Shown piece by piece: positions 28,630 through 34,852 of a stretch of 64,000 nucleotides of DNA. Every line of letters begins with the position of its first letter. Within the stretch, counting starts at the first letter, position 1. The notes beneath the pieces were generated by a model, which saw nothing but the letters and a program-made list of their open reading frames with translations, searched no databases and had not been told where the DNA came from. Source of the stretch: Gammaproteobacteria bacterium (lineage in GTDB: Bacteria > Pseudomonadota > Gammaproteobacteria > Pseudomonadales > Pseudohongiellaceae); contig VMDC01000027.1 in assembly GCA_008081045.1 (NCBI GenBank), positions 1 through 64,000 of the forward strand, in the 5' to 3' direction. The position numbers were made by a program, and so were the translations under genes.

Positions 28630-29634
28630 TCAGTCCTTGTGTTGTTCCAAATCGCGCTGCGATTTCTTGAAGGCGAGCTTTTGCTGCCGACGCTGCTCGA
28701 TAGTCGCCTGCACAGGGTGACCAAGATGCTCCTCACCTCGACGCTGCGCCAGTTCAATCTGCCGTTCCCGTTCGGCATACCGCTGGCGCTGTTCCGGCGA
28801 TTGTGTACCAAGGCAATGGTGGCAACTGACGCCCGGCTGATACTCTTCCCTTTGTTTGTCCTGCTCCGTAATCGGCATTCGGCAGGCATGACACTGATCA
28901 AAGGAACCTCGCTCCAGCTGGTGATTTACCGTCACTCGGTTATCAAACACAAAACACTCGCCTTCCCATTTGCTTTCCGGTTCCGGCACCTCCTCGAGGT
29001 ACTTCAGAATCCCGCCTTTAAGGTGGTAGACCTCTTCAAATCCCTGCTCACGAAGATACGCCGTGGATTTTTCACAGCGAATGCCTCCGGTGCAAAACAT
29101 TGCGACTTTTTTGTGCTTGCCGGGATCGAGCTGTTTTTTGACATAGTCAGGAAATTCGCGAAAGGAATCAGTACCCGGATTGACCGCCCCGGCAAAGGAT
29201 CCAATTTCAACTTCATACTTGTTTCGAGTATCCAGCAGCAGAACCTCAGGATCTGAAATCAACTCGTTCCAATCCCGGGCTTCCACGTAAGTACCGACAA
29301 TCTTATTCGGGTCGATGCCGGCAACCCCCATGGTTACAATTTCTTTCTTCAGTTTGACTTTGGTCCGATAAAAAGGATTTTCATCCACGTAGGACTCTTT
29401 GACTTCAAGACCGGCAAAACGCGAGTCTTGCCGCAGGAAGCCGAGCACCCGGTCTATACCTGCCCGGGGACCTGCAATCGTGCCGTTGATCCCTTCAGTC
29501 GCAAGCAGCAGTGTGCCGCGCACCTCAGCGGCGAGCAGACAATCCAGCAAGGGTTGCCGGAAGCTTTCAAATTCGGGAAATCGCGCAAAGCGATAAAGCG
29601 CAGCGACCACCACGCCGGGAGTTGTCTCAGTCAT
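28630..29634 (-). CDS. trhO: tRNA uridine(34) hydroxylase (rhodanese-like)
   Basis: A 334-aa TrhO/YceA protein, oxygen-dependent hydroxylase for 5-hydroxyuridine at tRNA position 34. The N-terminal domain has [14 protein letters not shown]. The rhodanese domain has [14 protein letters not shown] and active-site Cys in [16 protein letters not shown]. The C-terminal Cys-rich segment (CHACRMPI...CHHC) is a zinc-ribbon-like extension common in the family. Length fits E. coli TrhO (about 350 aa). Confidence 0.93.
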
Positions 29635-31068: not shown

Positions 31069-31911
31069 CTAGCTGACTACCGGCAGGTGGGACGGTGCGC
31101 CCCACTCCGCCCAGCTGCCGTCATAGACTGACAAATTTCGATAACCCAGCTCCCAGGCAGCCAGAGTGAGTACACAGGCAGTAATCCCTGACCCGCAGCT
31201 CGTGATCACCTGTTGCTCCAGGGTCGCCCGGTCAAGGAACAGTTTTCGAAGCTCCTCCGGCGGGCGCAACCGACCGGCCTCGAGCACGTCGGGAAAAGGC
31301 AGATTGCGGGCGGAAGGCATATGCCCTCCCCTGACGCCGGGTCTTGGCTCGGGCGCCGTACCGGCGAATCTGCCAGCTGAACGCGCGTCAATGATCTGCT
31401 TCTGTGGGTCGTCGATCGCCGCCAGCACCATTTCAAAATCACAGAACAGTCCTTCCTGCTCAGCAGGCTCAAAATTACCCGGACCGGGAGCCTCAGCGAG
31501 GGCATCGGTCACCGGATAAGCGTCAGCGAGCCAGGCCGGAAGCCCCCCGTCAAGCACGAACACCTTGTCATGCCCCATCGCTTTGAACATCCACCAGGCG
31601 CGCGGACTGGCATAGAGACCCACATCGTCATAGACAACCAGGGTGTCTTCATTGTTGATACCCAGCGCCTGCACTTTTTCCTGAAACAGCGCGGCAGACG
31701 GCATCATATGAGGGAGTGCAGTGTTGGGCTTACATACCTGTTGGTCGTAATCAAACCGGCGGGCGCCAGCGATTGCGGTAAATTTGTTCTCGCTGTTGTA
31801 AGAGACAAACCCCGGCACCACAGGCGGCACCGAGGCGTCCAGCACCACAAGGTTTTCATCACTCAGATGCCGGAACAGCCAGCCAACATCAACCAGCGCT
31901 GATTCTGTCAT
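31069..31911 (-). CDS. sseA: 3-mercaptopyruvate sulfurtransferase
   Basis: A 280-aa two-domain rhodanese protein. The catalytic loop in the second domain is SCGSGITACV, the CGSG(V/I)T form typical of mercaptopyruvate sulfurtransferases rather than thiosulphate rhodaneses. The inactive first domain has VVYDDVGLYASPRAWWMFKAMGH. It should transfer sulphur from 3-mercaptopyruvate to thiols or cyanide in the cytoplasm. Confidence 0.9.
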   Translation of the reverse strand: MTESALVDVGWLFRHLSDENLVVLDASVPPVVPGFVSYNSENKFTAIAGARRFDYDQQVCKPNTALPHMMPSAALFQEKVQALGINNEDTLVVYDDVGLYASPRAWWMFKAMGHDKVFVLDGGLPAWLADAYPVTDALAEAPGPGNFEPAEQEGLFCDFEMVLAAIDDPQKQIIDARSAGRFAGTAPEPRPGVRGGHMPSARNLPFPDVLEAGRLRPPEELRKLFLDRATLEQQVITSCGSGITACVLTLAAWELGYRNLSVYDGSWAEWGAPSHLPVVS

Positions 31912-31956: not shown

Positions 31957-32859
31957 TCAGAGGCGATTCCTGAATTCTCGCAGCTTGGCTTTAATTTTAG
32001 AGGCGTTCTCAGGGCCCATTCGAATAAGCAGCTTGTGGACTTCCTGAAGATTTTCAATACTCGCGTCCGCATACAGAAACATCACCGACGGTTTGACCAG
32101 CTGATAGGGCCCTTCGACTTCTTCGGCGGCGAGAACGGCGTTTATCGCAGAGCGCAGCGTGTCATCGAAACTCTGATTGCGAAATCCTATCTCCGCATAC
32201 GCCTGCTGAAACAGCGGAGACAAGAATCGGTACAGGGCATACGAGGCATCAGTATCAAGCGCGGTGAAAGTCTCAACCACTTCATTGAACCGGTCATAAG
32301 AGGCGTCATCCATGACAAAAAGGTTGGCGTCGATATTTCTGACCTGCATGTCTGTGCCGATCGGCTTATAGGGAACCCCCGTCTGTGGATACTCGCCGCG
32401 ACTGATGTTCTCTACCAGAGCAACGAATTTGCGCACAATCTGGTCACTCACCAGAAAATCGATTACGGCTGCACCACCGGAAATCTCACGCAGCTCCTCA
32501 AACACAAACGTATCGCTCTCATTAAGGCTCGGCAGGGGCGCTGCGGCAGGCGTCTCAGGTTCAACCTGCACAGGGCTGCTGGCAACCTCTGTGGGCAACG
32601 GTTCAACGATCGGCTCAGCCGCCGGTGGAGCGACCGGGTCTGTCTGCGGCTGAAGCCTGATTTCAGGCAAGATGCTGTTATCAGCTGGTGTGATCGCTCT
32701 TGAAGGCGGGCTCGGGCTTTGGACCGGCTCGACAGGCGGCGCAATCACCACGGTGGTCGTGCCACCCTGTGACGCATCGAAGGTCAACGCCAGATAGACA
32801 AGGCCCAGAAGCGTCACCACCGCAACACCGGCAATCGTAAATAAACCCGCTTTTTTCAT
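31957..32859 (-). CDS. DUF3014 membrane-anchored protein
   Basis: A 300-aa protein with one N-terminal membrane anchor (GLFTIAGVAVVTLLGLVYLAL), a long Pro/Val/Glu-rich linker (about residues 35-110), and a C-terminal periplasmic domain matching DUF3014 (FVFEELREISGG, VENISRGEYP, FNEVVETFTALD). The ATG at 32859 follows an AGGAG site. Function unknown. Confidence 0.85.
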   Translation of the reverse strand: MKKAGLFTIAGVAVVTLLGLVYLALTFDASQGGTTTVVIAPPVEPVQSPSPPSRAITPADNSILPEIRLQPQTDPVAPPAAEPIVEPLPTEVASSPVQVEPETPAAAPLPSLNESDTFVFEELREISGGAAVIDFLVSDQIVRKFVALVENISRGEYPQTGVPYKPIGTDMQVRNIDANLFVMDDASYDRFNEVVETFTALDTDASYALYRFLSPLFQQAYAEIGFRNQSFDDTLRSAINAVLAAEEVEGPYQLVKPSVMFLYADASIENLQEVHKLLIRMGPENASKIKAKLREFRNRL

Positions 32860-32984
32860 TCCGAACTCCTGAGTGCGGCTCAATTCTGTCACAGGGGCTG
32901 GGTCGCCTCAAGCAACGCACCGGTGCAGCTTGCAGTCCTTATTAGACTTACAGTCATCGAAAAAGTTTTAGGTTGCCTAATGTA

Positions 32985-33016
32985 AAAACCCGGTAGCAGA
33001 CCTGCTACCGGGTTTT
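32985..33016 (-). terminator. Rho-independent terminator of the selenoprotein peroxiredoxin gene
   Basis: A perfect 14-bp inverted repeat (32985-32998 and 33003-33016, AAAACCCGGTAGCA arm) with a 4-nt loop, followed on the minus strand by a T-run. It sits 50 nt beyond the peroxiredoxin stop. Confidence 0.85.
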
Positions 33017-33065: not shown

Positions 33066-33608
33066 TTAATGCTTGGGAAAGCCGAGATCGTTCATAGTCT
33101 GCACAAGGTCCCTGCCAGCGGTAGCCGGATTGGTTTCCTTGTCTATCTTCAGAACGGTGCCATCTGCACCAATATAATAGGTCCAGCGATTGGCAAATCC
33201 GACACCCATCAGGGCGCCGTAGGCATCTACCATCTCTTTACTGGGGTCAGCGAGGATTGGAAAGTTAGCCTCATGCTCTGCGGCAAAGGCAGTGTTGTCT
33301 TCCAGTGTGTCGACACTGGCCATGAAGTATGCAACGTCAAAATTCTGAATTTCTCTGGCACTGTCACGCAGCGCTTTACATTGCATAGTTCAGCCGCCGG
33401 TAAAGGCTTTGGGAAAGAAGGCAATCACCACCGGCTTTTCACCCAGAAACTGGGAAAGGCTGTAGGTGCTGCCGTCTGAAGCAGCCAGTGAAAAATCCGG
33501 TGCTTTGTCACCGACTTCCAGAGCTGCCGCAAATTGGCTTCCGAGCGCCGCTGAAGCCACCAGGGCAGTCAGCAGAGCGCGTGCGAAGCGCTTGGCAAGG
33601 TGAGACAT
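33066..33608 (-). CDS. Selenocysteine-containing peroxiredoxin, exported (in-frame TGA = Sec73)
   Basis: A 180-aa AhpC/TSA-type redoxin with a signal peptide (start MSHLAKRF at 33608 after GGAG; cleavage near FAAALE). The thioredoxin fold starts [19 protein letters not shown] and continues [13 protein letters not shown]. The next codon, at 33390-33392, is TGA, exactly where the peroxidatic Cys of the family sits; the frame then continues [11 protein letters not shown] to a normal end with [22 protein letters not shown] and WTYYIG. Residues around the TGA are conserved and the frame is intact on both sides. A hairpin meeting the bacterial SECIS rules follows (33358-33374). The protein would reduce peroxides in the periplasm, with Sec73 and Cys77 as a likely redox pair. 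A conventional gene caller would split it in two or mark it a pseudogene. Proof needs selA/selB/selC/selD elsewhere in the genome. Confidence 0.85.
33358..33374 (-). promoter_or_regulatory. Bacterial SECIS element (selenocysteine insertion hairpin)
   Basis: On the coding (minus) strand, 15 nt after the TGA, GCGCUG (33374-33369) pairs with CAGUGC (33363-33358), one pair being G-U. The 5-nt loop CGUGA has G at its second position. The UGA-to-loop distance is 21 nt. The published bacterial SECIS consensus asks for a 16-37 nt distance and a G in the first two loop positions; both hold. Confidence 0.75.
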
Positions 33609-33733: not shown

Positions 33734-34852
33734 TCAGAACAGAAACCCGCTGGGTCTGACACGGCGCAGTGCATCTGCCTCGGTTTGCAGCTGCCTGACG
33801 ACGGCATCAAATTCTTGTTTCTCGGAGACAGAGAGCCGGCTGTCAGAACTGTACAGTTTACGCATTCTCTCCAGCGAACGATCAATCGCACTGGTATGGC
33901 GGTACAGCGCCATTCGTTTGGCTTCCTGCTGCGACTGCCGGTAGCGGGGGTTTTCTACCTGAACATTGACGCACTGTCTGACCACCTGACCCGCGGCATT
34001 GCGTCGGTTCTGGCAACGGGACTGTGTAATGTACTGGCTTTCAGTACCCTGAAAATAATTATAGGGAGTGCTCGCAATATTGCGCGCCATCACAATATCT
34101 GCCTGCGATTTCCCCTGAAGCAATGCCATCATTCCCCGCGCATCCGCACCGGCTTCGCGCTCCAGTCCCGATATGACGAACTCATAAAAACTGCTCAGAT
34201 CCTCCGTGGTATTCATCAGCCCCCGGGAATTTTGTTGCAGCAGATTCTCCCTGATTACCCTGAGCTTCCACTTCCCGTAATCTTGCGCGGCTGACAGATA
34301 TTGCCGGTCACTGAGAGCATACAGCCGTTGGGAGATGTGATGAGTTAGGTGCGCAAGATCATCAACTTCCTGCCACTGCTGAGTGCGCGACCTGGCGTCA
34401 ATCAAGGCCTGTATGAGGGGTAACTGCTGCTCGCTGTACAGACCGGAATTTATCCGGACTATCTGCAGTGCTTCGCCGAGCGCCCCGGCAGCGCTCTCAT
34501 AATCTTCCAGTTCCAGATAGAGACGCGCCACGTCATCGTAAGCTTCAATGAGCGATTGATCATAAATTCCTTGCTGGCTCTGCAGTTCAACAATGGCTTC
34601 CTGGCGCCTGGCGAGTTCCCCGGCGAGCTCCTGCAAACGGGCTTCTTTTGCAGCCTGCTGGCGGGCCAGTTTTTCTGCCCTGATCTGGGCAGCTTTGGCA
34701 GCTGCCTGATCCTCTTCGAAACCCACATGGGCTCCGCCGGACTGCCCCCAGACAGAAGCAGACAGACTGACAGAAAAAATCAGCCATGCGATAAACTTCA
34801 GAGCAACCGCATTACCTGGAAAAACCAACCTGTTCATCACACAAGCAGACAC
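33734..34852 (-). CDS. Secreted TPR-like / coiled-coil protein of unknown function
   Basis: A 372-aa exported protein. The start is a GTG at 34852 after GAGG (an ATG 5 codons later is the alternative); the signal peptide ends SASVWGQS. Residues about 45-95 form a charged coiled coil ([24 protein letters not shown] is too long to be chance), followed by TPR-like helices ([25 protein letters not shown]). Two Cys lie in SRCQNRRN and RQCVNV. No known function. Confidence 0.6.

Follow-up and report, generated by a model that had tools for sequence, protein, structure and literature searches.

The minus strand of the window, by which we mean the whole 64,000-nucleotide stretch of gammaproteobacterial DNA analysed here, carries a gene that probably encodes an exported, selenocysteine (Sec)-dependent peroxidase, a reading to which we assign a probability of about 0.78 and in which U73 would be the peroxidatic residue, C77 is the only other thiol and an in-frame UGA would be decoded by SelB. 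Decoding of the UGA as Sec is, on comparative grounds, highly probable in itself. The statement as a whole is rated lower because the control for the rule used to score export itself looks exported, and because a role other than peroxide removal keeps a minor share of the probability. The reading is supported computationally by a TGA that appears to stand in for Cys, by a putative SECIS element bearing the marks of selection at the RNA level, by Sec machinery in the source genome, and by a predicted peroxiredoxin fold and active site; from these we infer actual Sec incorporation, export, peroxidase activity, a U73-C77 bond and a reductant that serves it.

A single in-frame TGA at the peroxidatic position of a peroxiredoxin gene

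The preliminary description of this DNA had placed a TGA exactly at the peroxidatic Cys codon of a peroxiredoxin, with both flanks in frame, and this was borne out by translation with the TGA read as a residue: the 180-aa frame contains a single TGA, at codon 73, which is preceded by FPKAFTGG and followed by TMQCKALRD with the frame kept throughout (Table 1). It had also been predicted that ordinary gene calling would split the gene, and a mechanical listing of open reading frames of at least 80 aa does indeed yield only a 106-aa piece instead of the full gene. The end of the gene is adjoined by a likely intrinsic terminator that a pattern scan had missed. Two rhodanese-domain proteins are also encoded near the gene (window 28630-29634 and 31069-31911), the pair consisting of a UPF0176-type protein and one with two rhodanese stretches, the latter showing synteny with the Sec gene within the genus.

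Table 1. Coordinates, within the window, of the candidate selenoperoxiredoxin gene, its parts and its neighbours
Feature	Position	Strand	Basis or remark
Candidate selenoperoxiredoxin gene, 180 aa, Sec very probable at residue 73	33066..33608	(-)	stop codon TAA 33066-33068
Predicted signal peptide, residues 1-29, cleavage point approximate	33522..33608	(-)	sequence features
Pro66 codon, Pxxx(T/S)xxC(U) active-site motif	33411..33413	(-)	invariant in alignment A1 (32 sequences)
Thr70 codon, active-site motif	33399..33401	(-)	invariant in alignment A1 (32 sequences)
In-frame TGA, very probably Sec73, peroxidatic position	33390..33392	(-)	frame reading and orthologue column
Cys77 codon, proposed resolving residue (U-X3-C)	33378..33380	(-)	only other thiol of the protein
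Putative bacterial SECIS hairpin, 6-bp stem GCGCUG/CAGUGC	33358..33374	(-)	folding and comparison
Putative SECIS apical loop CGUGA, G at position 2	33364..33368	(-)	47/47 distinct Sec sequences
Arg141 codon, presumed active-site arginine	33186..33188	(-)	invariant in alignment A1
106-aa fragment ORF, start Met75	33066..33386	(-)	mechanical ORF listing, minimum 80 aa
Likely intrinsic terminator: G+C hairpin, A run before, T run after	32984..33016	(-)	read directly in the sequence
Upstream neighbour, 372 aa, no Pfam match	33734..34852	(-)	beside Sec and sister-genus Cys orthologues
Downstream neighbour, DUF3014	31957..32892	(-)	beside Sec and sister-genus Cys orthologues

Orthologues carry either TGA or a Cys codon at the same column

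A protein search of 194 genomes, one per species and including the source genome, identified a TGA-bearing orthologue in 75: in 73 of the 84 genomes of the genus (three of them, G033, G066 and G071, with gene pieces only), in one genome from another genus of the family (G088) and in one from another family (G193). No copy was found by this search in 11 of the 84 genus genomes, and a Cys orthologue (159.9 bits or more) was found in fourteen of the 194. A class-wide draw of 369 genomes, again including the source genome, added two further TGA genes (G522 and G504) together with two that have TGC and no stop, and a phylum-wide draw of 398 genomes added two more orthologues, both in the Cys form. 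The expectation that homologues would carry Cys at the TGA column was upheld: across 157 matched loci, many of which are the same genomes counted twice and which include two Bcp-type paralogues (L191 and L192), codon 73 is TGA in 123, TGC in 24 and TGT in 10. Twelve weaker loci excluded from this count (L123-L134) all have Cys at the column.

The 80 best of 180 confirmed loci come in part from close relatives titled Pseudohongiella sp. or OM182 bacterium MED-G28; the Cys orthologues of the sister genera (g4 and g7, where the titles again include Pseudohongiella) have about 60-66% identity. Three loci (L102, L093 and L118) have titles (Rhodoferax sp., SAR86 cluster) that clash with their sequence and synteny, both of which group them with Pseudohongiella-like loci; the MAGs concerned may be mislabelled or mixed. 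Searches of viral contigs gave 28 pattern matches, none of them a relative, and those of plasmids gave two matches at about 35% identity, one of which is annotated as bcp.

Sec and Cys forms occupy the same locus in sister genera

We examined gene order in 50 Sec loci with flanks, drawn from the best 80 of the 180 confirmed loci. The 372-aa upstream gene lies beside 49 of these 50 and the DUF3014 gene lies downstream in 45, and the five loci where it is missing either end early or break off near the gene. Both flanking genes were also present in 10 of 12 sister-genus Cys loci, and one of them in the remaining two loci, which break off near the gene, with identities of 26-32% for the upstream protein and 42-46% for the DUF3014 protein. 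Since Sec and Cys loci have these flanks in common, the two forms are, within the family, the same gene in the same place. In six more distant Cys loci neither flanking gene was found.

The free tree, which is poorly resolved, implies four changes between Sec and Cys, of which its well-supported branches ask for at least two. Approximately unbiased (AU) tests did not reject a single Sec clade, whether this was composed of the 67 rows of family f1 (p 0.78) or of all Sec rows but L198 (p 0.58), and trees held to one Sec clade even scored better than the free tree. Conversions between Sec and Cys in several families, peroxiredoxins among them, are described in PMC1794560.

A candidate SECIS hairpin follows the TGA

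The hairpin starts 15 nt past the UGA, and its apical loop lies 21 nt from it. Bacterial SECIS elements, as defined in PMC13188914, have a loop of 3-9 nt, a stem of 4-16 bp, a G in the first two loop positions, a spacing of 16-37 nt and a minimum free energy (MFE) of at most -7.5. The hairpin falls within all of these published limits as given there, the 52-nt stretch having an MFE of -7.9 kcal/mol, inside the -7.5 limit. At the same time, its energy equals the mean of shuffled sequences (z -0.02), and a 57-nt stretch extended to 9 nt ahead of the UGA takes a different best fold, one that lacks the hairpin; the fold of a 76-nt stretch contains it.

The window, taken on both strands, has 2572 TGA triplets, and 648 of them, or about 25%, are followed by a stem of at least 6 bp that satisfies the rule (1244 for stems of at least 5 bp and 305 for at least 7 bp), so that inference of a SECIS element from one hairpin is weak, and we rejected the rule as a stand-alone proof. 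The adjacent SECIS proposed in the preliminary description therefore stood as to its parts, namely the 6-bp stem, the CGUGA loop with G at position 2, the distances of 15 and 21 nt and the agreement with the rules, but the argument from the rule applied to a single hairpin proved a weak one. Folding placed the element within the published limits but at the shuffle mean, and it is comparison that supplies the strength. Two extensions of the stem were also considered and set aside. The longer stem suggested by the 76-nt fold is unsupported, as its downstream partner, codon 93, is GCA in just 31 of 71 distinct Sec sequences, and a seventh pair beneath the stem is not kept, the columns involved (17 and 35) including 15 A-C and 4 A-A combinations among 47.

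Codons under the hairpin are frozen in Sec genes

For comparison at the codon level, rows that contained N or were too short were dropped and duplicates were collapsed, leaving 71 distinct Sec and 27 distinct Cys sequences. Codons 79-82 (GCG CTG CGT GAC) are identical in all 71 Sec sequences, 69 of which have AGT and 2 AGC at codon 83; the 27 Cys sequences vary at codons 79-83 in both codon and residue. The same-codon score of codons 79-83 is 0.98 in the Sec genes, the highest of 148 five-codon windows (median 0.48), and 0.48 in the Cys genes (median 0.43), where it ranks 29th of 149. On a tree of 70 Sec rows these five codons underwent 0, 1, 0, 0 and 3 synonymous changes, or 4 in all, where other two-, four- and sixfold codons of the same tree underwent on average 11.7, 18.6 and 19.1, and no total this low arose in 200000 degeneracy-matched draws. 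Each of the 47 distinct 51-nt Sec sequences forms all six stem pairs and has the loop CGTGA; of the 29 distinct Cys sequences, none forms all six.

In the hairpin of G504 (L198) the closing pair is changed from G-C to C-G and the basal pair from G-C to U-G with loop and spacing kept. When pairs were counted in 12 chosen sequences, two had changed on both sides, a value reached in 6 of 500 shuffles; five of six slid versions of the count showed none and one (+3) showed one. Both of the two-sided changes come from this single distant sequence.

That the hairpin is more than a chance structure follows from the recurrence of the TGA in 75 of 194 genomes, the frozen synonymous sites, the difference in pairing between Sec and Cys genes and the presence of Sec machinery. 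Weak as evidence when taken from one sequence, it becomes by comparison very strong evidence for a SECIS element, and we consider this comparison decisive. The same body of data bears on whether the gene is a pseudogene or an assembly error, in which a point change turned Cys into a stop beside a chance hairpin. The frame does hold just one stop, and a rule that a quarter of the window's TGA triplets pass could well be passed by accident; such an accident would, however, have to recur as the same TGA in 75 genomes, each from a different species. The tree's 101 distinct proteins contain no further stop, so that the test of multiple further disruptions named in the preliminary description was passed. 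Moreover, purifying selection acts on both sides of the TGA (for the window gene compared with L031, dN 0.042 and dS 0.59 over codons 30-72, and dN 0.004 and dS 1.13 over codons 84-179), and the synonymous sites of the hairpin are frozen. We regard decay or error as having a vanishingly small probability.

Three other codons are unusually constant in Sec genes. The codon for Gln76 (33381-33383) reads CAA in 70 of the 71 distinct Sec sequences and that for Lys67 (33408-33410), which precedes the UGA by 18 nt, reads AAA in as many, with one and two synonymous changes on the tree, respectively; Arg85 (33354-33356) is AGA in 50 of the 51 Sec sequences that have Arg there, with one such change. A search for a conserved pairing in Sec genes that could explain the conservation of codons 76, 67 and 85 found none.

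An ATG (33384-33386) lies 3 nt past the Sec-UGA in 65 of 71 distinct Sec sequences, and Ile occupies this position in 23 of 27 Cys orthologues; it is a possible site of reinitiation when selenium is short. If the UGA were a real stop, translation might restart at this Met75 codon to give two polypeptides, perhaps as a fallback under selenium shortage, and both the prevalence of the ATG and a spacing that would suit termination-reinitiation are in keeping with such an arrangement. The resulting halves would nevertheless part Pro66 and Thr70 from Arg141 and lack a peroxidatic residue, even though purifying selection acts on both; some Sec genes (L051, L162, L165, L173, L174, L186 and L198) have no ATG there; and the conservation of the hairpin and its link to Sec machinery would be left unexplained. 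We give this reading very little credence.

The source genome encodes Sec machinery

In the source genome (96.17% complete, 62 contigs) all four of the components that the preliminary description had proposed to look for were identified: selA (549 bits, cut-off 267.9), selB (392.3 bits, cut-off 242.25), selD (285 bits, cut-off 125) and tRNA-Sec with anticodon tca (66.6 bits, cut-off 47). Contig C2 carries selA, selB and tRNA-Sec, clustered within about 17 kb. In a 752-aa fusion protein (L201:2471-4729; G000:C2 about 230.5-232.7 kb), a pyridine nucleotide-disulfide oxidoreductase is followed by SelD as the C-terminal part, and Ndh-SelD fusions are a known arrangement according to PMC2398784.

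Across the 75 TGA genomes, selA was detected (E <= 1e-60) in 70, and four of the other five have tRNA-Sec, leaving G018 (85% complete) as the sole one of the 75 in which neither was detected. The TGA genomes G522, G504 and G193 have tRNA-Sec, and the Cys-form genome G097 has neither selA nor tRNA-Sec. As selA is present in eight of the 14 genomes with a Cys orthologue, a genome that has the machinery need not use the Sec form. Three genomes of the same genus, G054 (99% complete), G047 and G019, have selA and tRNA-Sec and no copy of the Sec gene that we could find; the case of G054 implies that the Sec machinery serves something else too, and another selenoprotein is probably encoded in the genus. 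Run on the source genome, a covariance model of the element (R1) recovered the selenoperoxiredoxin gene at 65 bits and ten weaker matches at no more than 13.7 bits; inspection of the frames of three of the ten revealed no credible selenoprotein. Near the sel genes lies a gene for a 477-aa protein with a thioredoxin-like N-terminal start, CPTC (L200:13134-14567; G000:C2 about 193.1-194.6 kb), which has no NCBIfam match and which we presume to resemble the UGSC family in Cys form.

These data also bear on the residue inserted. The presence of tRNA-Sec is by itself no proof of what is inserted, since some systems can load Cys on tRNA-Sec, and the UGA could conceivably be read through with an ordinary residue (Cys, Trp or Arg) by a near-cognate tRNA or a change of code. 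Against this stand a SECIS-like element that is kept only in TGA genes, the presence of selA or tRNA-Sec in 74 of 75 TGA genomes together with selD in the source genome, and the use of TGC or TGT by sister lineages when Cys is wanted. We see only a slim chance of such readthrough, and Sec remains the residue that we expect at position 73.

A predicted peroxiredoxin with a U-X3-C motif and signal-peptide features

The protein belongs to the AhpC/TSA peroxiredoxins, among which Bcp/PrxQ and AhpE are its nearest kin; it matches PF00578 (105.4 bits, cut-off 26) and PF08534 (78.9 bits, cut-off 26.6). An AlphaFold2 model of its mature part has a mean pLDDT of 95.5, the top Foldseek matches include Bcp1, BcpB, Bcp4 and AhpE at query TM-scores of 0.84-0.88, and the solved structures nearest by sequence are Sulfolobus Bcp and AhpE. 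P66, T70, C/U73 and R141, the last of which we take to be the active-site arginine of peroxiredoxins, are invariant in an alignment of 32 sequences (A1). Cys77 is present in all 71 distinct Sec and all 27 distinct Cys sequences and is nearly invariant in A1. In the AlphaFold2 model it shares a helix with residue 73, and resolution by Cys77 would, if the model is right, need this helix to unwind.

In Bcp/PrxQ proteins of the alpha type the resolving Cys lies at +5 (C-X4-C); here the second Cys is found at +4. The Bcp-type paralogues L191 and L192 have the C-X4-C spacing, unlike the U-X3-C of the window protein, and AhpE is called 1-Cys in its PDB title. The source genome also encodes a paralogue (C9:74424-74867) of 34% identity and without a stop. 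The scores for all listed NCBIfam models fall below their curated cut-offs, including those for NF006960 Bcp (78.1 bits against 140) and NF040737 peroxi_PrxU (40.7 against 270), so that no curated model there claims the protein. The latter, which we assume to be the model of PrxU of Eubacterium acidaminophilum, aligns to residues 27-172; PrxU is likewise a Sec peroxiredoxin, and the window protein differs from it in being shorter than the 233-position model, in its predicted signal peptide and U-X3-C motif, and in scoring so far below 270 bits.

These departures lend some substance to the view that the protein is a selenoprotein whose main job is not peroxide removal, with U-X3-C as a thiol-selenol oxidoreductase or metal-binding site, for which the CX3C of Sco proteins offers a loose likeness: the second Cys lies at +4, where L191 and L192 have it at +5 (CTVQAC and CTIQAC), and every listed NCBIfam model leaves the protein below its cut-off. 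The motif Pxxx(T/S)xxC plus Arg is, on the other hand, the peroxide-binding set, none of the 32 sequences departs from it, and by fold the protein best matches the Bcp and AhpE peroxidases. We judge a non-peroxidase role unlikely and favour a peroxidase.

Export was assessed by a crude rule combining hydropathy, charge and a small-X-small motif, after removal of two Bcp-type paralogues and of two Cys rows that do not start with Met. All 70 Sec and all 27 Cys proteins scored pass the rule, as does the sole control paralogue, L012, which itself looks exported. Export is a prediction with moderate support. Of the earlier proposal of a Sec-dependent periplasmic peroxidase, the Sec peroxiredoxin was sustained by the TGA in place of Cys, the machinery and the fold, and its location in the periplasm is suggested by signal-peptide features.

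A model for decoding and catalysis

In the sequence of events that we propose, SelB with GTP and Sec-tRNA(UCA) would bind the CGUGA hairpin 21 nt past the UGA, leading to insertion of Sec at position 73, and the signal peptide would direct export to the periplasm. Pro66, Thr70 and Arg141 would there activate the selenolate of Sec73 for the reduction of H2O2 or organic hydroperoxides. The selenenic acid may then be resolved as a selenenylsulfide by Cys77, which lies four residues further along the same helix, and a periplasmic thiol reductant would recycle the selenenylsulfide.

Discussion

Sec peroxiredoxins as a kind are not new; they are known and common in the sea. In PMC1088965 and PMC2398784, Sec-containing Bcp-type peroxiredoxins appear as an established and abundant marine selenoprotein family, with 43 sequences in the Sargasso set (PMC1088965) and 253 in the GOS set (PMC2398784). 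As described there, these proteins (COG1225/PF00578) share with the window protein the AhpC/TSA fold, a peroxidatic Sec in TxxU, a marine setting and a SECIS element just past the UGA. The terms 'signal peptide' and 'periplasm' are absent from the main texts of these two papers. A literature search that most subscription papers fell outside found none tying selenoproteins to OM182 or Pseudohongiella, none joining selenoprotein, peroxiredoxin, signal peptide and gammaproteobacteria, and likewise none joining selenoprotein, periplasm and Sec translocon.

Of the known systems, the Bcp/PrxQ thiol peroxidases (NF006960) and mycobacterial AhpE provide the nearest structures and have the same active-site set as the window protein. 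The sister-genus Cys orthologue is like the Sec gene in its flanks, its signal-peptide features and its X3 spacing (C-X3-C), and differs in having TGC or TGT at codon 73 and in not keeping the hairpin. What the present analysis appears to add is a U-X3-C subfamily with a predicted signal peptide, its near-fixation in the genus and an in-place difference between Sec and Cys in sister genera. We lean slightly towards treating it as a distinct, unnamed subfamily of periplasmic selenoperoxidases (U-X3-C, single-gene unit), near-fixed in a largely marine genus and with syntenic Sec and Cys forms in sister genera.

Mechanical ORF calling hides what is likely to be a peroxide defence enzyme of a marine clade. 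The frozen codons of the hairpin represent a clean case of an RNA element overriding the freedom of codon choice. If the reading set out here is true, the Sec and Cys genes form a natural matched pair in which both the gain that selenium brings to an exported peroxidase and the cost of the SECIS element to the protein could be measured, and, with Sec and Cys orthologues at one locus and the same apparent export route, the question of why bacteria keep Sec would become directly testable.
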